Source of the DNA: Zwartia panacis
Lineage (GTDB): Bacteria > Pseudomonadota > Gammaproteobacteria > Burkholderiales > Burkholderiaceae_B
Length of the DNA: 64,000 bases
Reading direction: 5' to 3'
Assembly (NCBI RefSeq): GCF_030410395.1
Contig: NZ_JAUHHF010000001.1
Coordinates: 248,001 to 312,000, forward strand
In this document: positions 27,370 to 39,871 of the stretch, in pieces
Layout: every line of letters starts with the position of its first letter
How positions within the stretch are numbered: the stretch's first letter is position 1
Notes under the pieces: generated by a model
Databases searched by the model: none
Told to the model about the DNA's origin: nothing
What the model saw: the letters and a program-made list of their open reading frames with translations, nothing else
Made by a program: the position numbers and the translations under genes

Positions 27370-29526
27370 TCAGTGCCATTCAAAAGCGATCAGACCCGCT
27401 TCGATCAAATCCGGTGTAACACCCAGCGACCATGCGGCGGCGGCAGCGGCGAGCACACTCGTGATGTGTTCGCGATGTGTGTCTTGACGGGTCACAGGGA
27501 TGGACGTGATCGTACAGAGATTTCGGCGAACCGATCCATGCGCCAAAATGAGTTGGCCGTGCTCAACGAAGACAGCGCGTTCCCCGTTGGCAACATGATT
27601 GACCAGTGCAGGCAGTTTGGCCTGACTGCTAAAGAGTGTCACTTTGCCGTCGCAATAATCCGCAAGCGCCATGACACGAGCATCTTCTGCATTCAGGACA
27701 GCCATGCCATGAGGCAAGACGACGTCCATCTGGGTACGGTAGATATTGATGAGATCTTGTTCGTCTAGTATTTCGTAAGCGGCAAGGTCTTGAGTCCAGT
27801 CCACATTTGTGATGATGCCGACCTCACAACGCTCGTAGGCGAGACCTTCAGTCAAAATTTGTTTGCAACCGTTTTCAATGATGACCGCTTGCACTTCCCT
27901 GTTCAGAAGCACACGTCGTCCATTCGCGTGGTCCGCACAGTTTCCCGAGTGCAAACGGCGATGATCGACGAACAGGCCCTCGCTGCATGCCAGACCCGTT
28001 TTCCAACCATGCAAAGATAAAAGTTTGAAAAGTAGTTTGCCCGTCAGTGTTTTGCCACTGGTACCGGTGATTCCCGTGACGGGAATGCGTGCCATGTCTC
28101 CGGGGGGGAAGGTGTAGCCTACGATGTCCCGTCCAACTTGTCGTGCTTTGCCTTGAGCAGGCTTGAGATGCATGAGCAAGCCCGGACCCGCGTTGACCTC
28201 CACAATCGCGCCTTGTTGCGCGGCGAGGGGTTTGGAAATGTCTTGGGCGACAAGATCAATACCCGCAATGTCCAGGCCGACAATGCGAGCCGCCGTACAG
28301 GCAACGGCGGCCACTTCGGGATGCACTTGTTCGGTACAGTCAAAGGCGACATTGCCGTTACGCTGAATGGTGATTGTTTTGCCGATGGGGGGGACATCGT
28401 CCGGTCCAAAGCCTTGCCGTTTGATTTCGAGCATGACTGCCGAATCCAGGCGAACGTAGTTGAGCGGTTGATCTTCTTCGTGTCCGCGTCGCGGATCGGC
28501 ATTGAGTTGCGTGTCGATGAGTTCGCGAATACTGCTTATGCCATCGCCAGTGACTGTCGCATCCTGGCCTTTGGCTGCGGCGATGAGTTTCCCCCCCACC
28601 ACCAGCAGTCTGTGCTCGTCGCCGCGGATGAATTGTTCAACGAGTACACCTGACCCTTCCTCGATTGCGACGGCGTACGCCCGTTCAATTTCCTCTTTTG
28701 TTGACAGATTCGTGAAGACGCCGCGTCCATGGTTACCGTCACTAGGCTTGACCACGACGGGCAGGCCTAAATCGACTGCGGCTTCCCAGGCATCCTCGAC
28801 GTTTGCGACCTCTCGGCCGACCGGTACGGGCACGCCACAGGCACGTAATAAGCTCTTGGTCAGATCTTTGTCGCGAGAGATGGTCTCAGCAATCGCGCCA
28901 GTGTTGTCAGTTTCAGCGGTCCAGATGCGTCGCTGGTTCACGCCATAGCCCAACTGCAACAAGTTGCCGGAGCTCAGTCTGATCGCTGGAATGTCACGGT
29001 CATCCGCGGCATCCACAATGCAAGCAGTGCTGGGCCCGAGGCAAAAGCGCTGTCGCAAATCATGAAGCGTATCAACCATGGGCTTGACCTCGAGTGCTTG
29101 ATCCTCGAGTGCATTCAGAATGAGTGTGCGCGCGAAAGCCAATGCCTGGCGCGTCACGTTCTCATGCCATGCGCGCACGACGACCTTGTACAGGCCAGGT
29201 TGGGAAGTCGCACGCGTTTGACCGAACCCTCCGGGCATGCCCGCCAGTTGCTGTAAGACCAGCGTGAGATGCTCAAGCAGGTGAGGCGGCCAAATGCCTG
29301 CGGCCAGCACGGATGGGGTGTCTTTGGTGGCTTCAATCCCTGGCCCAGGCTGGATAAGCGCTGGCACGGCTTTGATTAAGCGTTCGTAGGCGGCTAGAAC
29401 TTTGGGGGCGGGAAGTGCTTGAAACCCGTCAAACTGTATCCAGGCCTCGATGACCGGGCGGTAGGTCCAGATATTCGGCCCGCGTAAATAAATGTCACGC
29501 CGGGTCGAGATGTCACATGTGCTCAT
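27370..29526 (-). CDS. cphA': Cyanophycin synthetase-like protein CphA' (shortened paralogue)
   Basis: Paralogue of the neighbouring CphA, 718 residues from the ATG at 29526. It keeps the N-terminal domain (RRDIYLRGPNIWTYRP) and ATP-grasp signatures (KPSDGNHGRGVFTN, EQFIRGDEHRLLVVG). The Mur half keeps a P-loop (TGTSGKTLTGKL), but ETARGGIL of CphA is ENGCKQIL here and DHLG is lost. It ends where CphA still has about 150 residues, so the C-terminal Mur domain is missing. The layout resembles cyanobacterial CphA2, and cphA' genes are known beside cphA in Cupriavidus- and Bordetella-type bacteria. Which reaction it performs cannot be told from sequence. No clear ribosome-binding site at the chosen ATG. 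Confidence 0.9.
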   Translation of the reverse strand: MSTCDISTRRDIYLRGPNIWTYRPVIEAWIQFDGFQALPAPKVLAAYERLIKAVPALIQPGPGIEATKDTPSVLAAGIWPPHLLEHLTLVLQQLAGMPGGFGQTRATSQPGLYKVVVRAWHENVTRQALAFARTLILNALEDQALEVKPMVDTLHDLRQRFCLGPSTACIVDAADDRDIPAIRLSSGNLLQLGYGVNQRRIWTAETDNTGAIAETISRDKDLTKSLLRACGVPVPVGREVANVEDAWEAAVDLGLPVVVKPSDGNHGRGVFTNLSTKEEIERAYAVAIEEGSGVLVEQFIRGDEHRLLVVGGKLIAAAKGQDATVTGDGISSIRELIDTQLNADPRRGHEEDQPLNYVRLDSAVMLEIKRQGFGPDDVPPIGKTITIQRNGNVAFDCTEQVHPEVAAVACTAARIVGLDIAGIDLVAQDISKPLAAQQGAIVEVNAGPGLLMHLKPAQGKARQVGRDIVGYTFPPGDMARIPVTGITGTSGKTLTGKLLFKLLSLHGWKTGLACSEGLFVDHRRLHSGNCADHANGRRVLLNREVQAVIIENGCKQILTEGLAYERCEVGIITNVDWTQDLAAYEILDEQDLINIYRTQMDVVLPHGMAVLNAEDARVMALADYCDGKVTLFSSQAKLPALVNHVANGERAVFVEHGQLILAHGSVRRNLCTITSIPVTRQDTHREHITSVLAAAAAAWSLGVTPDLIEAGLIAFEWH

Positions 29527-29766
29527 AGGAAACAGTTTGGCTGCAGTAAAAGAGTATTTTGTTGCGCTGCACAACGTCATGCATGTGTCATTATCGCAGC
29601 AAAAAAGGTGTTTGGCGGGGCCTGACACATCGCGAGATCAATGCTTGGAGCATATGCTAGTTATACTTGCGAGGTGAACAGATTATTGAGCCAGCCAAAT
29701 TTTCCCAATGAACAGCTTTCTGTTGCAGTCGGCGTTCCAGACTGACGAGCCCCTTCTGCCGCAGCA
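29527..29766. promoter_or_regulatory. Divergent promoter region between cphA' and the ABC transporter gene
   Basis: 240 non-coding bases between two divergent starts. Facing the ABC gene, TATACT at 29662-29667 is a good -10 hexamer without a clear -35. Facing cphA', the minus strand reads TGCGATAAT (-10 hexamer at 29595 down to 29590), an extended -10 form. Both are candidates by eye. The arrangement implies common control of cyanophycin synthesis and the transporter pair. Confidence 0.4.
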
Positions 29767-32052
29767 ATGACACCTCTCGCATCCTCTGAGTCCACTCTCA
29801 GCCCATCCTTGCCCAGTAGTTGGTCAGACACTCTGACAGCGCTGCTGGAGCCGGATGAGCACGTCATTTCCTGGCTTGAGCCTGACCTGGACGACCGGCT
29901 GTATTTTGCGACGGGTGCGCTGGTCTTGACATCGCGTCGGCTGTTTTCAAGAGCGCCCGGCTCGACGGACTGGCTAGTCTGGACTGTATCCACGTCCCAG
30001 TCGCTTCAGCATCGCGATCATGCTGGAGTCGGTGCCATCGAGTTGTTTGATGGCGCAAACCGCCTCGGGATCTGGCGCCATACGCTAGGTATTGTTCCGG
30101 CTGTGGCTCGCATGGTCGAACTGTTTGGCAATTTACAAAAAAAATTACGCGACCCAAATGCTGAGATCGTGGTCGATGCGGCCTCTTGTCCTGCTTGTGG
30201 CACACCTTACGCACCTGACCAGGATGAGTGCGCGGTTTGTGATGCCGCCCCGACCGGACCGAGCGATACCTGGGCGTTGCTGCGTTTGGCGCGATTTGCC
30301 AAACCTTATCGGATACCGTTGCTTGTCGGATTGTTGTTGACGCTGATGTCGACTGCAGCCTCGCTGGTGCCCCCATACCTCACCATGCCGTTGATGGATG
30401 ACATTCTGATTCCTTTTCAGAATGGCAAGCCTATTGACTACGATTTAGTGACCCTTTACTTGACGGGTCTGGTTGTGGCTGCTTTGCTTGCCTGGTTGCT
30501 GGGATGGGCCCGAACCTATCTCTTGTCCTGGGTCAGTGAACGTATCGGCGCGGACTTGCGCACGACGACATTCAATCATCTTCAGACATTGTCCCTGCAG
30601 TTTTTCGGCGGCAAGCGAACAGGCGATTTGATGGCGCGTATTGGTAGCGAAACGGATCGCATCAATTTATTTCTGTCTTTGCATTTCCTTGATTTCGTCA
30701 ACGATGTCTTGATGATTTTGATGACGGCCGCGATCTTGCTGTCCATTGATCCATGGTTGGCAGTCACGACACTGGTTCCATTGCCGGTCATTATTTGGAT
30801 GATTCATCTGGTCAGGGATCGCTTGCGTTTCGGTTTTGAAAAAGTTGACCGCTCTTGGAGCGAGCTGACCAATGTGCTGGCCGATACGATTCCCGGAATC
30901 CGTGTGGTTAAAGCATTCGCTCAGGAAAAACGTGAAGTCGCACGCTTTAGAGAGGCGAATGATCGCTACCTGAATGTGAACGACCGTATCAACAAGATCT
31001 GGGCGCTCTTTGCCCCGACCGTTACTTTTCTGACAGAGATCGGTTTGTTGGTAGTTTGGATTTTTGGTATCACTCAAGTTGCCTCCAGCGCGATTAGCGT
31101 CGGTGTGTTGGCGGCATTCTTAGCTTATATCGGTCGTTTCTACACTCGACTGGATTCGATGAGCCGGATCGTGACCTATACCCAACAGGCCGCAGCGGGT
31201 GCCAAACGAATTTTCGATATTCTGGATCACGTCTCAAGTGTCCCCGATGCGCAACGCCCCGTGCCTCTAGACCGGATGGAGGGTCGGATCGAGATTCGCA
31301 ATGTGGGTTTCCGTTACGGAAGTCGTACCGTGTTGCGAAACGTTAATCTGAGCATTGGTGCGGGGGAAATGATCGGACTGGTCGGGCATAGTGGCTCCGG
31401 CAAGAGTTCACTGGTCAACCTGATCTGTCGCTTCTACGATGTCACCGAGGGTGGTATTCGTGTCGATGGCGTGGATATTCGCTCCTATTCGCTCAACTCT
31501 TTCCGAAGCAACATTGGTCTGGTGTTGCAAGAGCCTTTCCTGTTTTTTGGCACGATTGCCGAAAATATTGCTTACGGAAAGCCGACCGCGACACGCGAGG
31601 AGGTCATCGCAGCAGCCAGAGCGGCTCGTGCGCACGAATTTATTTTGAGACTTCCTCAGGGCTACGATTCTCTGGTGGGAGAGCGTGGACAGGCTTTGTC
31701 AGGTGGTGAGCGTCAACGTATTTCTATTGCGCGCGCCTTGCTGATCGATCCTCGCATTTTGATTCTCGATGAAGCGACTTCGTCGGTTGATACGACAACA
31801 GAAATGGAAATCCAGGAGGCTCTGGATAATTTGATTCAGGGTCGTACGACTATTGCGATTGCGCACCGACTCAGCACGTTGCGTAAAGCCGATCGTTTGG
31901 TCGTACTAGACCGCGGGCAAGTCGTCGAGATCGGTAATCATGAGGATCTCTTGGCGCGCGGTGGCGCCTATCACGCTTTGTACGAAGCACAAACGCGTCA
32001 AGTGGATGCGGAACCTCCTCTCCCAAGTTCAAGTGAGGCGAGCAATGGTTGA
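29767..32052 (+). CDS. Cyanophycin-associated ABC transporter (permease-ATPase fusion with zinc-ribbon N-terminus)
   Basis: Half-type ABC exporter, 761 residues. Residues 1-130 are an extra N-terminal region with a PH-like look (DDRLYFATGALVLTSRRLFSR); Cys141/144 and Cys155/158 form a CxxC-x10-CxxC zinc-ribbon; six membrane segments span about 170-450 (RIPLLVGLLLTLM, LVVAALLAWLLGW, and on). The ATPase at 500-745 is complete: GHSGSGKSS (Walker A), LVLQEP (Q-loop), LSGGERQRISIARAL (signature), ILILDEATSSVD (Walker B), AIAHRLS (H-loop). I recall this family being named for co-occurrence with cyanophycin genes; its substrate is unknown to me. Overlaps the DUF1854 gene by 8 bases. Confidence 0.9.
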   Translation: MTPLASSESTLSPSLPSSWSDTLTALLEPDEHVISWLEPDLDDRLYFATGALVLTSRRLFSRAPGSTDWLVWTVSTSQSLQHRDHAGVGAIELFDGANRLGIWRHTLGIVPAVARMVELFGNLQKKLRDPNAEIVVDAASCPACGTPYAPDQDECAVCDAAPTGPSDTWALLRLARFAKPYRIPLLVGLLLTLMSTAASLVPPYLTMPLMDDILIPFQNGKPIDYDLVTLYLTGLVVAALLAWLLGWARTYLLSWVSERIGADLRTTTFNHLQTLSLQFFGGKRTGDLMARIGSETDRINLFLSLHFLDFVNDVLMILMTAAILLSIDPWLAVTTLVPLPVIIWMIHLVRDRLRFGFEKVDRSWSELTNVLADTIPGIRVVKAFAQEKREVARFREANDRYLNVNDRINKIWALFAPTVTFLTEIGLLVVWIFGITQVASSAISVGVLAAFLAYIGRFYTRLDSMSRIVTYTQQAAAGAKRIFDILDHVSSVPDAQRPVPLDRMEGRIEIRNVGFRYGSRTVLRNVNLSIGAGEMIGLVGHSGSGKSSLVNLICRFYDVTEGGIRVDGVDIRSYSLNSFRSNIGLVLQEPFLFFGTIAENIAYGKPTATREEVIAAARAARAHEFILRLPQGYDSLVGERGQALSGGERQRISIARALLIDPRILILDEATSSVDTTTEMEIQEALDNLIQGRTTIAIAHRLSTLRKADRLVVLDRGQVVEIGNHEDLLARGGAYHALYEAQTRQVDAEPPLPSSSEASNG

Positions 32053-32509
32053 TTTTCAGCTCACGCGCAACTTGGCTGGGCGGCTCGTCCTGAGGCTTTC
32101 TGATGGCACGACACACGAAGGCGTTACGCCTGTGCGCGCGTACCCTGTTCAGTCTCCCCAGGAGTTTGTCGCATTGATGAGCACTGAAGGTAAGGAGGTG
32201 CTCTGGATTGAACGCCTGGCTGACGTGCCCGAGGATATCCGAGCGCTCGTTAATGAAGAAATCGCCTCGCGCGAGGTCATGCCTGTGATCCAGCATCTGA
32301 CCAAGGTCTCAACCTATTCGACACCGAGCACCTGGGAGGTTGTGACGGATCGCGGTCCGACCAAATTCGTCCTGAAGGGTGAGGAGGATATCCGTCGCCT
32401 GAACGGAGGTACCCTCATCATTACTGACAGTCACGGTCTGCGTTTTTATGTGGCGGACATGCAGCAGCTCGATAAACATAGTCGCCGAATTCTCGATCGC
32501 TTCCTTTAA
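32045..32509 (+). CDS. DUF1854 family protein, cyanophycin-associated
   Basis: 154 residues from the ATG at 32045; starts inside the last codons of the ABC gene, so translation is coupled. No signal peptide or membrane segment is visible; probably cytosolic. Family features include LSDGTTHEGVTPVRAYP near the N-terminus, EVLWIERLADVP in the middle and DRGPTKFVLKGEEDIRRL with ITDSHGLRFYV near the end. Consistent linkage of DUF1854 with the ABC transporter and cphA suggests it acts with the transporter, but no biochemical function is known to me. Confidence 0.88.
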   Translation: MVDFQLTRNLAGRLVLRLSDGTTHEGVTPVRAYPVQSPQEFVALMSTEGKEVLWIERLADVPEDIRALVNEEIASREVMPVIQHLTKVSTYSTPSTWEVVTDRGPTKFVLKGEEDIRRLNGGTLIITDSHGLRFYVADMQQLDKHSRRILDRFL

Positions 32510-33655: not shown

Positions 33656-34108
33656 ATGGCTATAAAACTGACCGTCAATGGCAAACAGCACAGCATTGAT
33701 GTGGATCCGACAACTCCTCTACTGTGGGCCATCCGTGAACAAGTCGGATTGACCGGCACCAAGTACGGCTGTGGCGTGGCCCAGTGTGGCGCCTGTACGG
33801 TGATGCTCGATGGGCAAGCCATTCGCTCCTGCGTGATTCCTGTCAGTGCGGCAGAAGGCAAAAGCGTCCAAACCATCGAAGGTCTTGCGACCGATGGCAA
33901 ACTCACCAAGCTGCAGCAAGCCTGGATTGATCATCAAGTGCCGCAGTGCGGCTTCTGTCAAGCCGGCATGTTGATGGCTGCGACCGATCTGCTGAACAAG
34001 AATCCAAAGCCCACCGATGCGGACATCGACACGGCGATTACGAATATTTGTCGTTGCGGAAGTTTCCAGGAAGTTCGCGCCGCGATTCACTCAGTTGCTA
34101 AAGCTTAA
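33656..34108 (+). CDS. (2Fe-2S) small subunit of a molybdenum hydroxylase (IorA-like)
   Basis: Electron-transfer subunit of a two-subunit molybdenum hydroxylase of the isoquinoline 1-oxidoreductase/aldehyde dehydrogenase type. 150 residues with no signal peptide. The plant-type [2Fe-2S] cluster sits at residues 39-61 (KYGCGVAQCGACTVM) and the second in CGFCQAGM and NICRCG near 100-140. GGGAG lies 7 bases before the ATG and is part of a perfect palindrome (33644-33653). First gene of a six-gene run that continues into sox genes; 11 bases before the large subunit, with which it probably folds before joint Tat export. Confidence 0.94.
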   Translation: MAIKLTVNGKQHSIDVDPTTPLLWAIREQVGLTGTKYGCGVAQCGACTVMLDGQAIRSCVIPVSAAEGKSVQTIEGLATDGKLTKLQQAWIDHQVPQCGFCQAGMLMAATDLLNKNPKPTDADIDTAITNICRCGSFQEVRAAIHSVAKA

Positions 34109-34119
34109 GGGGTCCTCAC

Positions 34120-36309
34120 ATGAATGCTCGCGTCCCGAATCCTTCCCGCAGACAATTTATCGTCGGCACGACTGCCGTCAGTACAGGTCTGGCCCTGGGC
34201 TTGCAGTTTCCCTTTAGCAGCCTCGCGCAATCCGCCGGCGCCACACCCGAGATCGGTGTGTGGGTTGTGATCAAGCCTGATGAAAAAGTCATTGTTCGCG
34301 TCGTGCGTTCAGAGATGGGTCAAGGCACCATTACCGGCTTGGCGCAGATGGTTGCAGAAGAGCTCGAGTGTGACTGGAAAAATGTCACCACCGAGTATCC
34401 GACACCCGGCGAAAGTCTCAAGCGTAAAAACCCCTGGGGCTCGTTCTCCACAGGTGGTAGCCGCGGTATCCGCACTTCAGAGCAGTACGTGCGTCAGGGT
34501 GGCGCAGCGGCCCGCATGATGCTCGTCCAGGCAGCAGCCGATGGCTGGAAAGTGCCGGTGGCGGAGTGCGTGGTTTCCGAAGGCGTCATTACCCACAAGC
34601 CAACCGGTCGCAAGACAACCTATGGCAAAGTGGCTGATGCTGCTTCGAAATTAGCCGTACCAAAAGACATTCCACTGAAAGATCCAAAAGACTGGAAAAT
34701 CATTGGCAAGTCAGTTCAGCGTATCGATACGTTTGCCGACAAAGTGACCGGCAAGCAGATTTACGGCATGGATTTGACGCTACCTGGCATGGTTGTGGCC
34801 ACCATCAAAGAATGTCCCGTCTTTGGCGGCAAGGTCAAGAGTTTTGATGCCAGCAAAGTCCAGGGCATGAAAGGTGTCAAGAAAGTGGTGCAGGTGGGTG
34901 ACTCCGCCGTGGCCGTCGTGGCCGATACTTTCTGGGTGGCCAAGACGGCCATGGATGCTTTGCCAATCGTGTGGGACGAGGGTCCAAACGCCAAAGTATC
35001 GAGTGAGACCATCGCTGCGATGCTCAAGGAAGGTCTGGCCGCCGAGCAAGCCTTTATCGGTAATCAGCGTGGTGACACCAAGGCAGCGCTTGCCGGTGCG
35101 GCCAAGAAAATCGAGTCCACATATTCTTATCCGTTCCTGAATCACGCTCCGATGGAGGTGATGAACGCGACAGCCAAGTGGACGCCTGAGCGTTGCGAGG
35201 CCTGGGTTCCCACTCAGGACGGTGAGGCTTCTCTTGCTGCAGTGATCGCCGCTTCCGGATTGCCTGCGGACAAGTGCGATGTCTACAAAATCAATCTCGG
35301 CGGTGGTTTCGGTCGTCGTGGCGCTTTCCAGGACTACACCACACAGGCGGTCAATATCGCCAAGCAGATGCCTGGCGTCCCCGTCAAGCTGATCTGGACT
35401 CGCGAAGAAGACATGACCCAAGGTCGTTACCATCCTGTCATGATGTGCAAAATGACAGGTGCGTTTGACGCTAACAAGAAACTGACCGGCGTGCATATGC
35501 GTCTCTCAGGCCAGTCGATTTTGGCGGCTGTGCGTCCAGCGATTGTCGAGAAAGACAAGGGCCGCGACATTCTGGTTTTCCAGGGCGTCATGGAAGGTGG
35601 AGAGCATGCGATTGGTTATGAGTTCCCCAATCAGTTGATCGATCACGCTATGCGCAATACGCATGTGCCCCCAGGTTTCTGGCGTGGCGTGAACGTCAAT
35701 CAGAACGCGATCTTTATCGAGTGTTTCATGGACGAGCTGGCCGAAGAGGCTGGCATGGATCCTGTCGCATTCCGTCGTCAATACATGGGCAAGTTCCCGC
35801 GTAACCTGGCTGCCATGAACGCAGCGGCAGAGGGGATTGGTTGGGATAAGCCCGCTCCCAAGGGTGTGCATCGGGGTATCGCCCAAATGATGGCGTTTGG
35901 CAGCTATGTGGCCGCTGCTTGCGAGCTGTCTGTCATGGACGGTAACAAGGTCAAGATCCACCGGATTGTGGCGGCGACTGATTGCGGCTATGCCGTGAAC
36001 CCTGCTCAGATTGAGCGCCAGGTATCCGGGTCTTTTGTTTATGGTTTGTCCGCGCTGTTCGAAGAGGAGTGCACAATCAAAGACGGCCGTGTCGAACAAA
36101 AGAACTTTGATACCTTTAACTCGATCCGCCTGGCGCAGATGCCCAAAGTTGAAACCATCATCATTCAAGGTGGCGGAAAAGCCTGGGGCGGCATTGGTGA
36201 GCCAACAATTTGCGTGGCAGCTCCAGCCGTATTGAACGCGATTTATCGCGCCACGGGTAAGCGTTTGCGTGATGTGCCCTTGAAGAAAAGTGGTTTTACC
36301 TTGGTATGA
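34120..36309 (+). CDS. Molybdopterin-binding large subunit of a molybdenum hydroxylase (IorB-like)
   Basis: Catalytic subunit of a xanthine-oxidase-family enzyme, 729 residues, likely periplasmic. Twin-arginine signal at residues 6-30 (SRRQFIVGTTAVSTGLALG). Molybdenum-cofactor landmarks: GQGTITGLAQMVAEEL near 65, GGGFGRRGAFQDY near 390, and the catalytic Glu in GGIGEPTICVAAPAVLNA near the C-terminus. IorB-type enzymes usually pass electrons to cytochrome c, which fits the two cytochrome genes downstream. The stop overlaps the soxX start (36306). Substrate cannot be named: aldehydes and N-heterocycles are known for the family, no sulfur substrate is. No XdhC-type maturation gene is visible nearby. 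Confidence 0.92.
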   Translation: MNARVPNPSRRQFIVGTTAVSTGLALGLQFPFSSLAQSAGATPEIGVWVVIKPDEKVIVRVVRSEMGQGTITGLAQMVAEELECDWKNVTTEYPTPGESLKRKNPWGSFSTGGSRGIRTSEQYVRQGGAAARMMLVQAAADGWKVPVAECVVSEGVITHKPTGRKTTYGKVADAASKLAVPKDIPLKDPKDWKIIGKSVQRIDTFADKVTGKQIYGMDLTLPGMVVATIKECPVFGGKVKSFDASKVQGMKGVKKVVQVGDSAVAVVADTFWVAKTAMDALPIVWDEGPNAKVSSETIAAMLKEGLAAEQAFIGNQRGDTKAALAGAAKKIESTYSYPFLNHAPMEVMNATAKWTPERCEAWVPTQDGEASLAAVIAASGLPADKCDVYKINLGGGFGRRGAFQDYTTQAVNIAKQMPGVPVKLIWTREEDMTQGRYHPVMMCKMTGAFDANKKLTGVHMRLSGQSILAAVRPAIVEKDKGRDILVFQGVMEGGEHAIGYEFPNQLIDHAMRNTHVPPGFWRGVNVNQNAIFIECFMDELAEEAGMDPVAFRRQYMGKFPRNLAAMNAAAEGIGWDKPAPKGVHRGIAQMMAFGSYVAAACELSVMDGNKVKIHRIVAATDCGYAVNPAQIERQVSGSFVYGLSALFEEECTIKDGRVEQKNFDTFNSIRLAQMPKVETIIIQGGGKAWGGIGEPTICVAAPAVLNAIYRATGKRLRDVPLKKSGFTLV

Positions 36310-36758
36310 CGCGAAGAGTGATAAGGTGCCTCATCACAGCATGTTTTGTGTGGGCGGCTCCTTTCACGATTCAGGCGCAGCACTCTAGCCAAGTCACAGA
36401 CGGGGAGGTCATTGTCAACTCCCTGTCCGGTGCGCCTGGTGATCCAGCGCGGGGTCGCCTGATCGTTTTAAGCCGTCAAAGTGGCCTGTGCATCTTGTGT
36501 CACAGTGGTCCGTTTCCCGAAGAGCGTTTTCAGGGAAATCTGGCTCCCGATTTGGCTGCGAGTGCCGCCAGACTCTCGGAAGCCCAGCTGAGGGCCCGCA
36601 TTGTCGATGCCAGTCGCTTTAATCCCGACACAATCATGCCGCAGTATTTCAGAAAGGATCACTTTACCCGGATTGCACCGCAGTTCGCTGGCAAGACGAT
36701 TCTGACTGCTCAGGAAATCGAAGATGTCGTGGCATTTTTAGTGAGCTTAAAACAATGA
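36306..36758 (+). CDS. soxX: SoxX-type c-type cytochrome
   Basis: Monohaem subunit of the SoxXA cytochrome complex that oxidatively joins thiosulfate to the SoxY Cys in canonical Sox systems. 150 residues. Sec signal at 1-25 (CLITACFVWAAPFTIQAQ), haem site CILCH at residues 62-66, and Met111 in DTIMPQYF as the likely distal ligand. Its ATG overlaps the stop of the IorB-like gene (ATGA) and its own stop overlaps soxY, so the whole set is translationally chained. Length and motif order match SoxX. Confidence 0.9.
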   Translation: MTRRVIRCLITACFVWAAPFTIQAQHSSQVTDGEVIVNSLSGAPGDPARGRLIVLSRQSGLCILCHSGPFPEERFQGNLAPDLAASAARLSEAQLRARIVDASRFNPDTIMPQYFRKDHFTRIAPQFAGKTILTAQEIEDVVAFLVSLKQ

Positions 36759-37207
36759 GCACAAACCGCAGAGCATTTATCACAGTCATCGGGGCGATGG
36801 GTATCGTGCCTTGGTTGAATGCCAAAGCAACGCCCGCTGAGGCCGTTGAGGCGATTCAGAAAATTCTTGGCAATGCCCAGCCCCGCAATGGGCGTGTGGC
36901 ACTGGAAATTTCACCCCTGGTTGAAAATGGCAATCTGGTGCCCATGAGCGTGACCGTGGAAAGTCCAATGACACAAGCTGATCACGTCAAGGCGATTCAT
37001 GTCATTTCCGAAGGGAACCCCTTGCCAAATGTGGTGAGTTTTTATCTCGGTGCCCGTGCCGGACGCGCGCAAGTCAGCACCCGCATTCGACTGCTGACTT
37101 CCCAACGTTTGTGGGCGGTGGCTGAAATGAGCGATGGTTCGTTCTGGCAAGGTTCTGCCGAGACGATGGTGACGTTGGCTGCTTGCACGGAAGAGGTGCT
37201 GATATGA
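36755..37207 (+). CDS. soxY: SoxY-like sulfur carrier subunit with altered C-terminal arm
   Basis: In known Sox systems SoxY carries the sulfur substrate on a Cys in a C-terminal GGCGG arm, in complex with SoxZ, in the periplasm. This one has 150 residues, a Tat signal (NRRAFITVIGAMGIV) and the usual beta-sandwich region (ISPLVENGNLVPMSVTV, FYLGARAGRAQVSTRI). Its single Cys, Cys144, is in TLAACTEEVLI: the glycines are gone and six residues follow the Cys. The other two frames do not encode GGCGG, so a simple frameshift is not the cause. Overlaps soxX and soxZ by 4 bases each. Confidence 0.88.
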   Translation: MSTNRRAFITVIGAMGIVPWLNAKATPAEAVEAIQKILGNAQPRNGRVALEISPLVENGNLVPMSVTVESPMTQADHVKAIHVISEGNPLPNVVSFYLGARAGRAQVSTRIRLLTSQRLWAVAEMSDGSFWQGSAETMVTLAACTEEVLI

Positions 37208-37536
37208 GTAAAACCTCACGGACTGTCGTATCCATGCCCAAGACTGCTGCAAAAGGCGAGATTGTGCCGATCCGTGTCATTGTTCAGCACGACATGGAAT
37301 CGGGGTTTCGTCATACTGAACGTGGTGTGCGCGTACCAAGAGACATCATTCGAAATTTTGTTTGCACCTATGAAGGTGTTGAAGTGTTTCGCGCTGATCT
37401 GCATCCTGCGGTGGGTGCCAATCCGACATTCAGTTTTTTCACAGTGGCGACGCAAAGCGGTACCCTCGAATTCAAGTGGTCGGGTGACAATGGCTACGCC
37501 TCGAGCGTGACAAGTCAGCTGACGGTGACGGGATAG
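37204..37536 (+). CDS. soxZ: SoxZ-like sulfur carrier subunit
   Basis: Partner of SoxY in the SoxYZ carrier. 110 residues from the ATG at 37204, which overlaps the soxY stop (ATGA). No signal peptide, as usual: it is exported with SoxY. Family features: VPIRVIVQHDMESGFRHTE near residue 25 and VFRADLHPAVGANPTFSFF near 70, with TLEFKWSGDNG near the end. Sequence looks canonical, unlike SoxY. Confidence 0.92.
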   Translation: MSKTSRTVVSMPKTAAKGEIVPIRVIVQHDMESGFRHTERGVRVPRDIIRNFVCTYEGVEVFRADLHPAVGANPTFSFFTVATQSGTLEFKWSGDNGYASSVTSQLTVTG

Positions 37537-37537
37537 T

Positions 37538-38326
37538 GTGACTTTGCCGGGTGTGTTCATTCACAGCGTTGCCGTGCGTTTGTTGCTCACGCTGGTATTG
37601 TGTGTAGTCGGGCTGTCGGCTTGGGCGCAGGACAAGCGTCAATCCAGTTATTGGTTGATGTCCCCCGAAACAAGAGCGATGCAGGATGACGAAGCGCTCA
37701 ATCCAGCGACCTTCTGGATCCTGGATGGGCAAACGCTCTGGAACGAAGCGGCAGGCAAAAAAAACATTTCCTGTGCGCAATGCCATGGTGATGCGTCTGT
37801 CTCGATGAAGGGTGTGGCGGCGAGTTTTCCCAAAGTCGTCAATCACGCACTCTTGAGTCTGGAGGGACAGATCAACATGTGTCGCCAGTCGAAACAGGAT
37901 GCCTCGCCCTTGACCCTAGAGAGCAAGCCTTTATTATCGCTCGCGACGTATGTGGGTCATGCCTCCAAAGGTATGCCGATCTCCGTTGAGCGCACGCCCG
38001 AGAATTCGGCTGATTTGGATGCCGGACAGCGACTTTTTAACCAGCGTGTTGGTCAGCTTAATTTGTCTTGTGCGCAATGCCATGCTGAACGCGCCGGCTT
38101 GAAACTTGGAGGCAATGTCATCCCGCAAGCGCATCCCACGGGTTATCCGATCTATCGGCTCGAGTGGCAAACGGTGGGTTCCCTGCAACGCCGTTTGCGT
38201 AACTGTATGACGGGCGTACGTGCCGAGCCTTACGCGTTGGGATCGAAAGAACTCGTGCAACTGGAACTATTCCTGATGTGGCGAGCAAGAGGTATGCCGC
38301 TTGAAACGCCCGGAGTGCGCCCTTAA
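37538..38326 (+). CDS. soxA: SoxA-type dihaem c-type cytochrome
   Basis: Catalytic cytochrome of SoxXA. 262 residues from a GTG one base after the soxZ stop; Sec signal at about 10-31 (LLLTLVLCVVGLSAWAQ). Both haem sites are present: CAQCH at 79-83 with Cys115 as the first axial Cys, and CAQCH at 178-182 with Cys223 (RNCMTGVRAEPY) as the second. The complete ligand set suggests a working enzyme, so the change in SoxY is not simple decay of the pathway. Last gene of the operon; no soxB, soxCD or soxVW nearby. Its stop overlaps that of a convergent gene. Confidence 0.9.
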   Translation: MTLPGVFIHSVAVRLLLTLVLCVVGLSAWAQDKRQSSYWLMSPETRAMQDDEALNPATFWILDGQTLWNEAAGKKNISCAQCHGDASVSMKGVAASFPKVVNHALLSLEGQINMCRQSKQDASPLTLESKPLLSLATYVGHASKGMPISVERTPENSADLDAGQRLFNQRVGQLNLSCAQCHAERAGLKLGGNVIPQAHPTGYPIYRLEWQTVGSLQRRLRNCMTGVRAEPYALGSKELVQLELFLMWRARGMPLETPGVRP

Positions 38327-38937
38327 CCTCCCGAGAGACTGTGTTCATCCTCGGCAAGCCCTGTGCCAGTCAAATGCACCGTGCAGTTCACGAGCTCTGC
38401 CCGATGAGGGGCGTGCGCACTGATCGTAGTGATGGCCGTGTTGCCGATGCGTTCCGGAATGCTGTGCGCACCAAGTTCGATATTGTTCTCAAGCATGGCA
38501 CGAATGACCAGGCCATGACTCACGATAATGAGCGGTCCTGTCAGACTTTCCCTCAGCTTGGCTGCATAGGCAAGCGCCTCGGTTACTCGCGCGTGAAAGC
38601 TCGCCATGGACTCGCCATTTTTGGGGGCTTCAATCATTTCCATCGCATTGAAGCTGAGTGTGTCGTAGGGACGTCCACGTAAATCCCCAAAATTGCGCTC
38701 CCAGAGTAATGGGGTGCTGATAGGCGTGAGCCCTGTGCTACGACTGATTGCTTGCGCAGTCTGCCAGGCGCGTGGCATGTCGCTCGCCAAAATAGCGGCA
38801 GGCTTGAGCGCACTGATCCGCTCTGCGACACGCTCTGCCTGTGCGAGACCGCGAGGAGCCAGTGGCGTGTCTGCAGGCTGGATGGTACGCGCCGCATTGA
38901 GAAGTGTTTCGCCGTGGCGAATCAGGATAATCGACAT
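38323..38937 (-). CDS. Histidine phosphatase family protein (phosphoglycerate-mutase-like)
   Basis: Histidine phosphatase superfamily branch 1, 204 residues from the ATG at 38937. Phosphorylated His in LIRHGETLLNAA (residues 6-9), ASDMPRAWQTAQAI near 53, catalytic Glu region LLWERNFGDLRGRPYD, and the second His in IIVSHGLVIRAML. Members include phosphoglycerate mutases, cobalamin-pathway and sugar phosphatases; sequence alone does not choose. Convergent with soxA with overlapping stop codons; 31 bases downstream of the M23 peptidase gene. Confidence 0.88.
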   Translation of the reverse strand: MSIILIRHGETLLNAARTIQPADTPLAPRGLAQAERVAERISALKPAAILASDMPRAWQTAQAISRSTGLTPISTPLLWERNFGDLRGRPYDTLSFNAMEMIEAPKNGESMASFHARVTEALAYAAKLRESLTGPLIIVSHGLVIRAMLENNIELGAHSIPERIGNTAITTISAHAPHRAELVNCTVHLTGTGLAEDEHSLSGG

Positions 38938-38968
38938 GGTGCCTTCCTTGTGTCTGCCACGTTCGTGG

Positions 38969-39871
38969 TCAGGAGGTGAACATACCGATAAATATTGCGG
39001 GATCGACGCGCGCATCATTCAGGCTGACATTCCAATGCAGGTGCGCGCCGGTGACTCGGCCCGTTGCGCCGACCTTGCCAAGGATTTGACCGCGCGCGAG
39101 TTGTTGCCCGGACTTAACATCGATCGTCGAGAGATGGCAAAACATGCTGATCATGCCTTGACCGTGATCGACAAAGACGGTCTTGCCATTGAAAAAGTAA
39201 TCGCCCACCAAAATCACACGACCAGCAGCGGGTGATTGAACGGGAGTCCCGGTCGGAACGGCGAAATCCAGCCCCGAATGTGGTGCGCGGGGTTGATCGT
39301 TAAAAAAGCGCTTGAGACCGAAAGGACTCGAGAGCGGTCCCTTGACTGGACGATCCAGCAAGATGTTGCTCGGGGACTGCGCACTGAATTGCTGATAGGC
39401 ATCGTCTTGAAGTTTTTTTTCTCGCTCGTATCGGGCTAAATCCTCAGGGCTGAGGTCGACGTGCTTGTTCGTTTTGAGCGTGATGCGTTGCTCGCGATAT
39501 TTCTTGTCGCGGATGAGAAATATTTCTATCGATTTCTTGCCACCTCGGGACACCTCGAGTTCTTGCTTTTCAATGGGAGCGGACAGCGGGATGCCGACTA
39601 TCGCAAACCAGCGACCCGTATCGGTTCTGGCAACCAGCACGGGCTTGTTTAAATACCGGGCTGTGGGGGCGGGGGTCTGTCCTTGACCTGTGCCCGTGAT
39701 GTCGAGGACAGCCACGCCGCCAGGCACCGGCTGGTGTAAAGATTTAAGCTGCTCTGCACTAAAAGACGTGGCATGTGTCAAGACGGGTGCGATCAGTACC
39801 GCAAGCGTCAAGAGTGCGAGCAGAAGTTTGCGCAAGGAGGAGTGCAATAGGTCACCGAGACTCAAAACCAA
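38969..39871 (-). CDS. M23 family metallopeptidase (LytM domain)
   Basis: Periplasmic peptidoglycan-directed zinc peptidase or LytM regulator. 300 residues; signal at about 13-36 (LLLALLTLAVLIAPVLTHA). An N-terminal Ig-like region leads to the LytM domain at about 170-295 with the zinc motifs HSGLDFAVPTGTPV (HxxxD) and AHLHWNV (HxH); both present, so it is likely active. The start is uncertain: TTG at 39871 overlaps the upstream dsbB-like gene by 10 bases, and a TTG at 39835 would remove 12 residues. Third gene of the DUF5993-dsbB-M23 run. Confidence 0.85.
   Translation of the reverse strand: MVLSLGDLLHSSLRKLLLALLTLAVLIAPVLTHATSFSAEQLKSLHQPVPGGVAVLDITGTGQGQTPAPTARYLNKPVLVARTDTGRWFAIVGIPLSAPIEKQELEVSRGGKKSIEIFLIRDKKYREQRITLKTNKHVDLSPEDLARYEREKKLQDDAYQQFSAQSPSNILLDRPVKGPLSSPFGLKRFFNDQPRAPHSGLDFAVPTGTPVQSPAAGRVILVGDYFFNGKTVFVDHGQGMISMFCHLSTIDVKSGQQLARGQILGKVGATGRVTGAHLHWNVSLNDARVDPAIFIGMFTS

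Follow-up and report, generated by a model that had tools for sequence, protein, structure and literature searches.

What could a molybdenum (Mo) hydroxylase be doing in one operon with the genes of a sulfur carrier system? The question is raised by a window of DNA from Zwartia panacis, a member of the Burkholderiales (assembly GCF_030410395.1, contig NZ_JAUHHF010000001.1, positions 248,001 to 312,000 of the forward strand). The window is the whole stretch that was analysed, 64,000 nucleotides long, and it holds six genes on the same strand (33656-38326) that, according to the list of open reading frames and to Pfam and NCBIfam matches, encode a 2Fe-2S subunit and a Mo subunit followed by homologues of SoxX, SoxY, SoxZ and SoxA (Table 1). 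The conserved genes of this operon suggest an unstudied sulfur pathway that would run beside ordinary thiosulfate oxidation without replacing the thiosulfate route. The reading favoured here, to which we give somewhat less than an even chance, is that the six genes form a second, dedicated periplasmic carrier module of the Sox type which, jointly with a Mo hydroxylase of the xanthine oxidase family, acts on a sulfur substrate.

Table 1. Genes of the six-gene operon and their positions in the window.
Gene product	Position	Strand	Length (amino acids)	Family matches and other features
2Fe-2S subunit, xanthine-oxidase-family Mo hydroxylase	33656..34108	+	150	Pfam Fer2 and Fer2_2
Mo-cofactor subunit	34120..36309	+	729	Pfam MoCoBD_1/2; twin-arginine N-terminus SRRQF
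SoxX-type cytochrome c	36306..36758	+	150	TIGR04485, 81 bits (cut-off 61)
SoxY-type carrier, altered arm AAC-TEEVLI	36755..37207	+		TIGR04487, 194 bits (cut-off 172); twin-arginine N-terminus
SoxZ-type partner	37204..37536	+	110	PF08770, over cut-off
SoxA-type di-haem cytochrome c	37538..38326	+	262	GTG start; TIGR04484, 216 bits (cut-off 110)

An earlier note on this DNA, made from the sequence by itself, had described the six genes as overlapping or nearly touching, with the stop codon of the Mo subunit gene lying over the soxX start, and both the family assignments and a direct reading of the junction letters bear this out. The Mo/soxX junction is an ATGA overlap at 36306-36309, the soxX/soxY and soxY/soxZ junctions are ATGA overlaps too (three in the operon), a single base separates the soxZ stop from the GTG of soxA, and 11 bases lie between the 2Fe-2S and Mo genes. 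Downstream, the operon is closed by a convergent gene at 38323-39018. The single transcript that the note had also proposed is argued for by the start/stop overlaps and by the conserved gene order; the scan for promoters and terminators stayed at chance level and adds nothing to it (3 promoter sites found against 3.1 expected). The twin-arginine motifs of the Mo subunit and SoxY are invariant in aligned relatives (20 and 22 rows, respectively) and the N-termini of SoxX and SoxA look, by eye, like Sec leaders, so that all products of the operon would be expected in the periplasm; no signal peptide was seen by eye in the 2Fe-2S subunit. SoxZ lies below the cut-off of TIGR04490 (68.7 against 76 bits).

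Is the operon simply what remains of an ordinary Sox pathway? The lack of soxB and soxCD to which the earlier note had drawn attention is true of the operon neighbourhood, but not of the genome (3.34 Mb in 54 contigs), in which a separate canonical cluster on contig C50 (locus L033) encodes SoxC, SoxY with a GGCGG arm, SoxZ, SoxA, SoxX and SoxB, all above their NCBIfam cut-offs (for SoxY, 169 bits with TIGR04488, cut-off 125). SoxB, absent from the six-gene operon, stands there with a SoxXYZA set of its own. The cytochrome c encoded between SoxC and SoxY is taken, from its position, as SoxD, and near the cluster lies a gene for the flavoprotein of flavocytochrome c sulfide dehydrogenase, with a small CxxCH protein encoded before it. 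Because of this cluster, the reading of the operon as one that has lost SoxB and SoxCD was rejected: it is a divergent second Sox module and not what a lost pathway has left behind. The operon shares with canonical Sox (SoxXA-SoxYZ-SoxB-SoxCD) the SoxX, SoxY, SoxZ and SoxA homologues, the haem motifs, the SoxA cysteine and the cysteine of the SoxY arm, and it coexists with a canonical cluster in one genome; it differs in having no SoxB or SoxCD, in carrying a Mo hydroxylase, and in a SoxY arm that reads AACTEEVLI and not GGCGG.

The conservation of the arrangement was followed through 139 loci, one of them a duplicate (L120, on the same contig as L041). An order-wide TIGR04487 search contributed 59 loci, mostly SoxY matches and including the canonical cluster L033, and the other 80 are the best 80 of at least 593 matches to the Mo alignment among named genomes; sampling was by match strength, and the frequencies given here are not those of all genomes. 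All six genes occur together in 94 of the 125 distinct Mo-bearing loci (95 of 126 with the duplicate still included), and the 2Fe-2S, Mo, SoxY and SoxZ genes in 118 of the 125. Six-gene carriers are found in Zwartia, Polynucleobacter, Pseudoduganella, Noviherbaspirillum, Bradyrhizobium, Bosea, Tardiphaga and Microvirga, and the nearest named relative among those best 80 is Zwartia vadi (L093; Burkholderiales, Alcaligenaceae), with 92% identity in the Mo subunit. Since the six genes are co-located so often, the operon is not a chance association, and the gene order, whose comparison in relatives the earlier note had called for, is conserved. It appears very improbable that the Mo and Sox genes lie side by side with functions unrelated to each other: the two halves are placed divergently in L078-L080 (counted here as six-gene loci) and 5 of the fetched loci have a SoxXYZA set of the same type but no Mo genes, yet adjacency is conserved in beta- and alphaproteobacteria, the genes overlap at their starts and stops, and one clade, described below, keeps SoxYZ alone beside the Mo enzyme. 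Six Mo-bearing loci have no SoxYZ, and in four of them (L113, L119, L157, L160) the contig ends less than 0.8 kb past the last Mo gene; L037 has Mo, SoxY and SoxZ on a contig that begins inside the Mo gene.

The hydroxylase has both the 2Fe-2S subunit and the MoCoBD domains of the xanthine oxidase family. Its two subunits match the same solved structure best, over nearly their full length: the Mo subunit matches 8gy3_C with 228 bits (runner-up 84 bits), and the 2Fe-2S subunit matches 8gy3_B, the small subunit of an aldehyde dehydrogenase, with 156 bits. R10, R11 and a GEP motif with Glu694 are invariant in 20 of 20 aligned Mo subunits, and Glu694, which we take to be the catalytic C-terminal glutamate of the xanthine oxidase family, aligns with a Glu of 8gy3, 1rm6 and 5y6q. 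Within the same genome the nearest other homologue of the Mo subunit is 29% identical. Judged by its sequence, the enzyme is too distant from 8gy3 for a substrate to be transferred, and it differs from that aldehyde dehydrogenase and from the IorB-type Mo hydroxylases in being linked to SoxXYZA and, in relatives, often to FccAB as well. The 8gy3 enzyme presumably has a separate cytochrome c subunit; in the operon, no cytochrome gene other than soxX and soxA is present. A second 2Fe-2S/Mo pair lies directly upstream of the operon in three loci from metagenome-assembled genomes (L094, 2662-5417; L098; L100) and L160 has three consecutive Mo genes, and these extra pairs hint at several substrates or sequential oxidations. 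In L152 (3870-7733), a Mo hydroxylase of the Sox-linked clade, without SoxYZ, is followed by genes that by eye resemble those of pyrroloquinoline quinone (PQQ) synthesis.

On the Sox side, the best solved matches are 2c1d_B and 1h31_B for SoxX, 1h31_A and 2c1d_A for SoxA, and 2ox5_Z for SoxZ. The catalytic cysteines and haem motifs are intact: CxxCH of SoxX is kept in 96 of 96 distinct relatives, the two CxxCH motifs and the RxRxC cysteine of SoxA in 94 of 94, and Cys144, in the AACTEEVLI end of SoxY, is shared by all 22 aligned sequences. The canonical GGCGG swinging arm is absent from the window SoxY, which reaches 86 bits against the TIGR04488 cut-off of 125 and lies above that of TIGR04487, the 'SoxY-related AACIE arm protein' (194.1 against 172 bits), so that the clade has already been split off by the NCBIfam curators. 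The name of that family carries no function, and a linkage to Mo hydroxylases was not seen among the literature matches listed.

The type of arm goes with the presence of SoxA of the operon type (with its SoxX partner, SoxXA-2; the carrier, SoxYZ-2). Every six-gene locus (94 distinct) has a C-x-E/D arm, and the Mo-bearing loci without SoxX and SoxA have C-G (n=11), C-N (n=1, L069) or C-x-E/D arms (n=10), the arms CGD (L058) and CGDE (L073) being assigned by eye to C-G and not to C-x-E/D. An operon-type SoxA is encoded elsewhere in the genome in 10 of the 10 C-x-E/D genomes without adjoining SoxXA (164-287 bits, 45-56% identity; the match in G339 is partial only) and in 0 of the 12 with C-G or C-N arms, whose best matches do not exceed 86 bits. 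Fisher's test gives 1.5e-6 for this difference with kinship ignored, the 12 forming one clade, three of the 10 (G131, G169, G263) belonging to a single genus, and G143, another of the 10, having six-gene loci as well. That the C-x-E/D group should have SoxA-2 in trans was an expectation formed, though not recorded, before the genome scan. On the Mo tree, which omits 27 loci (near-identical rows were thinned), L113 and Mo fragments shorter than 500 amino acids, the C-G/C-N rows make up a single clade (12 rows, SH-like approximate likelihood ratio test 100), and a comparison of arm type with SoxA-2 presence by independent pairs had just 3 pairs and hence no power. The pairing fits an action of SoxXA-2 on the C-x-E/D arm.

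Because the C-G/C-N clade keeps SoxYZ next to the Mo enzyme without SoxXA, the enzyme's constant partner is SoxYZ rather than SoxXA. The earlier note had weighed two roles for the Sox proteins, and that of SoxYZ carrying a substrate-derived group fits this clade, with no such SoxA elsewhere in its genomes, better than that of SoxXA accepting electrons. It has to be considered that SoxXA-2 does no more than take up the electrons of a periplasmic dehydrogenase for aldehydes or N-heterocycles, with SoxYZ-2 as a helper or relic, which would provide the cytochrome c that 8gy3, the nearest solved relative and an aldehyde dehydrogenase, presumably brings along and that is otherwise missing from the operon. 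In our judgement this is improbable, since the clade without SoxXA retains SoxYZ, the sulfur-transfer cysteine of SoxA-2 is present in all 94 relatives and the cysteine of SoxY-2 does not vary. The four-gene form of the operon (2Fe-2S, Mo, SoxY, SoxZ), which lacks SoxXA and has C-G or C-N arms, is seen in L045, L048, L049, L051, L054, L057, L058, L059, L062, L067, L069 and L073, a separate clade that may represent a simpler Mo hydroxylase linked to a carrier. Five loci (L052, L063, L071, L081, L092) have SoxXYZA of the operon type, with a C-x-D arm, but no Mo hydroxylase within the stretch fetched, and SoxC/SoxD-like genes lie near these genes in L063 and L071.

Does the module handle sulfur? 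The best sign that it does is the recurrence of FccB, the flavoprotein of flavocytochrome c sulfide dehydrogenase (FccAB). FccB lies in or adjoins 44 of the 94 six-gene loci (29 of 29 in Bradyrhizobium, 15 of 65 in the others), and it is found in none of the 24 loci that have the 2Fe-2S, Mo and SoxYZ genes without SoxX or SoxA. It stands between the Mo gene and soxX in Bradyrhizobium, some other alphaproteobacteria and one genome of the window's order (L036), preceded in part of these insertions by a small cytochrome c gene; it follows soxA in L094-L097, L099-L101, L147 and L161; and in L171 it is beside soxA on the opposite strand. The Pfam domains FCSD_central and FCSD-flav_bind are present in all four FccB flavoproteins examined, and the best solved chains for that of L036 are flavocytochrome c sulfide dehydrogenases (5n1t, 3vrd, 1fcd). 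Scored as presence within the fetched stretch, FccB changes 8 times on the Mo tree. The window operon itself has no FccAB, and FccAB-like genes are found at the canonical sox cluster instead.

Other neighbours were surveyed as 796 genes in 118 loci, of which the first 32 clusters were viewed; most clusters are unannotated, and an earlier clustering of open reading frames had contained many shadow frames. The commonest are TctC receptors, short-chain dehydrogenases, ATPases of ATP-binding cassette (ABC) transporters and enoyl-coenzyme A (CoA) hydratases. For eight clusters one member each was identified by Pfam, as TctC, short-chain dehydrogenase, branched-chain ABC ATPase, enoyl-CoA hydratase, beta-propeller, TauD, MarR and CoA-transferase III. 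The TauD-type dioxygenase, one member of which was checked in this way, occurs at L126 (10263-11138), L054, L097 and L130 and gives a weak hint at organosulfonate use. In the window, a cyanophycin synthetase lies just upstream of the operon (27370-32509), together with an NCBIfam cyanophycin-associated ABC transporter and a DUF1854 protein.

Could the Mo hydroxylase be a stand-in for SoxCD, oxidising sulfane sulfur bound to SoxY-2 when inorganic sulfide or thiosulfate is consumed? The sole recurrent partner with a clear sulfur role is the sulfide dehydrogenase FccAB, SoxXA and SoxYZ are themselves sulfur-handling proteins, and three SoxB-positive operon genomes have no SoxC (G031, G090, G103). 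Co-occurrence was examined in an order sample of 300 genomes, in which SoxB scored above its cut-off in 140 and SoxC in 66, the first 4 or 5 candidates being scored per genome, so that some matches may be missed. The 29 operon genomes are those of the loci fetched (27, among them G000, have all six genes, G198 gave no match for SoxX, and G210 is truncated by the contig end), and unfetched strong matches (e.g., G242, G272) are counted among the 271 others. SoxB is present in 23 of the 29 operon genomes and 117 of the 271 others, and SoxC in 21 of 29 and 45 of 271; among SoxB-positive genomes, SoxC accompanies the operon in 20 of 23 against 38 of 117 (Fisher's test 2e-6, kinship ignored). A further set of 60 operon genomes, which overlaps the first, consists of G000, another 21 from the order sample and the 38 to which named loci belong; here SoxB passes in 51 and SoxC in 46, and genomes with no SoxB above cut-off include Noviherbaspirillum aerium, Bosea sp. 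ASV33 and Microvirga massiliensis. The operon is associated with complete Sox, and because SoxC is enriched in its genomes it is unlikely to be a replacement for SoxCD. To our knowledge, moreover, oxidation of a sulfur centre is not known in the xanthine oxidase family. With the reported dispensability of a second soxY for thiosulfate oxidation in Bradyrhizobium diazoefficiens added (PMC5748708, available portion), a stand-in for SoxCD is rather unlikely.

The Bradyrhizobium case deserves a closer look. According to the available portion of PMC5748708, B. diazoefficiens has soxY1 and soxY2, and thiosulfate oxidation needs only soxY1. Three places with a Pfam SoxY are found in B. diazoefficiens SZCCT0449: a stand-alone SoxY with GGCGG beside SoxB, a second stand-alone SoxY that is Mo-linked, with the arm AACTEEMN and FccB inside its operon, and a fused carrier of the family TIGR04557. 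On the basis of this strain, and not of USDA110, soxY2 is probably the Mo-linked gene, and the second sox locus of Bradyrhizobium would then be the same operon as that of the window, known in the portion of PMC5748708 at hand only as non-essential. The earlier note had reckoned with a canonical set elsewhere in the genome whose thiosulfate oxidation depends on the operon; such a set exists, but the likely equivalent of the operon in B. diazoefficiens is not needed for thiosulfate. Masuda, writing in 2010, reportedly saw a likeness between locus II and the Sox genes that green sulfur bacteria carry.

A Sox carrier that serves a dehydrogenase has a precedent in the fused SoxYZ-like carrier that, with a zinc metallohydrolase, is found beside PQQ alcohol dehydrogenases (PMC12997753, available portion). 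These quinoprotein-associated TIGR04557 carriers (e.g., in the Pseudomonas ped cluster) resemble the operon in joining a Sox carrier to a periplasmic dehydrogenase and not to SoxB/SoxCD, and differ in a fused SoxYZ, in a PQQ enzyme and in that no SoxXA is named in that portion of PMC12997753; the window SoxY and SoxZ reach 55 and 34 bits against the TIGR04557 cut-off of 140 and fall outside the family. By analogy, SoxYZ-2 might bind an aldehyde as a hemithioacetal that the Mo enzyme would turn into a carrier thioester. The likeness of the Mo enzyme to an aldehyde dehydrogenase, the precedent just cited and the existence of a four-gene form without SoxXA would agree with such a route. It is nevertheless quite unlikely, as no recurring metallohydrolase was recognised beside the operon (by eye, and by Pfam in one member each of eight neighbour groups) and the SoxXA and FccAB of the six-gene form would be left unexplained. 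Among the literature matches listed, no publication on the gene combination was found, which is weak evidence of absence, as the search mostly did not reach subscription literature. The view of the earlier note that the combination is undescribed has held to that extent, and it concerns one conserved unit.

Returning to the second carrier module, we infer its whole route, every reaction step, substrate and electron transfer, as follows. SoxXA-2 would join a substrate with a thiol group (an organic thiol or persulfide being the likeliest) to the arm cysteine of SoxY-2 as a disulfide, passing two electrons to cytochrome c. The Mo hydroxylase with its 2Fe-2S subunit, exported by the twin-arginine pathway, would then oxidise the group tethered to SoxYZ-2, with water as the oxygen source and c-type cytochromes as electron acceptors. 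Sulfur left on the arm would finally pass to flavocytochrome c sulfide dehydrogenase and then, through ordinary SoxB and SoxCD, to sulfate. Organic thiols are favoured because the Mo hydroxylase family oxidises carbon, because a complete inorganic Sox system is usually present already, and because the likely soxY2, as far as the published account is available, is not essential for thiosulfate oxidation. In this specific form, which is possible but doubtful, SoxXA-2 would clip an organic thiol onto the arm cysteine of SoxYZ-2, the Mo enzyme would oxidise the bound carbon part and free a carbonyl or carboxylic product, and the sulfur would go to FccAB and complete Sox.

Several observations weigh against this reading. 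No enzyme of the xanthine oxidase family is known to us to use a substrate bound to a carrier. Flavocytochrome c is as good a sign of inorganic sulfide as of organic thiols, so that an inorganic substrate may be used, and 29 of the 44 FccB cases come from Bradyrhizobium. No widely recurring gene for organosulfur use was found beside the operon in the neighbour survey of 118 loci, the TauD-type dioxygenase lying near 4 of them only. The pairing of arm and SoxA-2 amounts to a single change on the Mo tree, and in two of the 125 distinct loci (L152, L163) the Mo enzyme has no SoxYZ despite a contig that continues. In addition, 6 of the 29 operon genomes have no SoxB above cut-off, and 5 have neither SoxB nor SoxC; a hand-over to canonical Sox cannot therefore be general.

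If the organic thiol route were true, it would provide the first protein-bound substrate for the xanthine oxidase family, as far as we know, and an organosulfur entrance to Sox. The carrier reading, if true, would link two well-studied chemistries, that of the Sox carriers and that of the Mo hydroxylases, in a manner that we have not found described, and would give a testable role to the second, non-essential Sox locus of Bradyrhizobium. Counts of sox genes are often taken as a capacity for thiosulfate oxidation. The soxXYZA homologues considered here, from Polynucleobacter, Bradyrhizobium, Zwartia and their relatives in freshwater and soil, belong to another module, and such counts may therefore overestimate thiosulfate oxidation.

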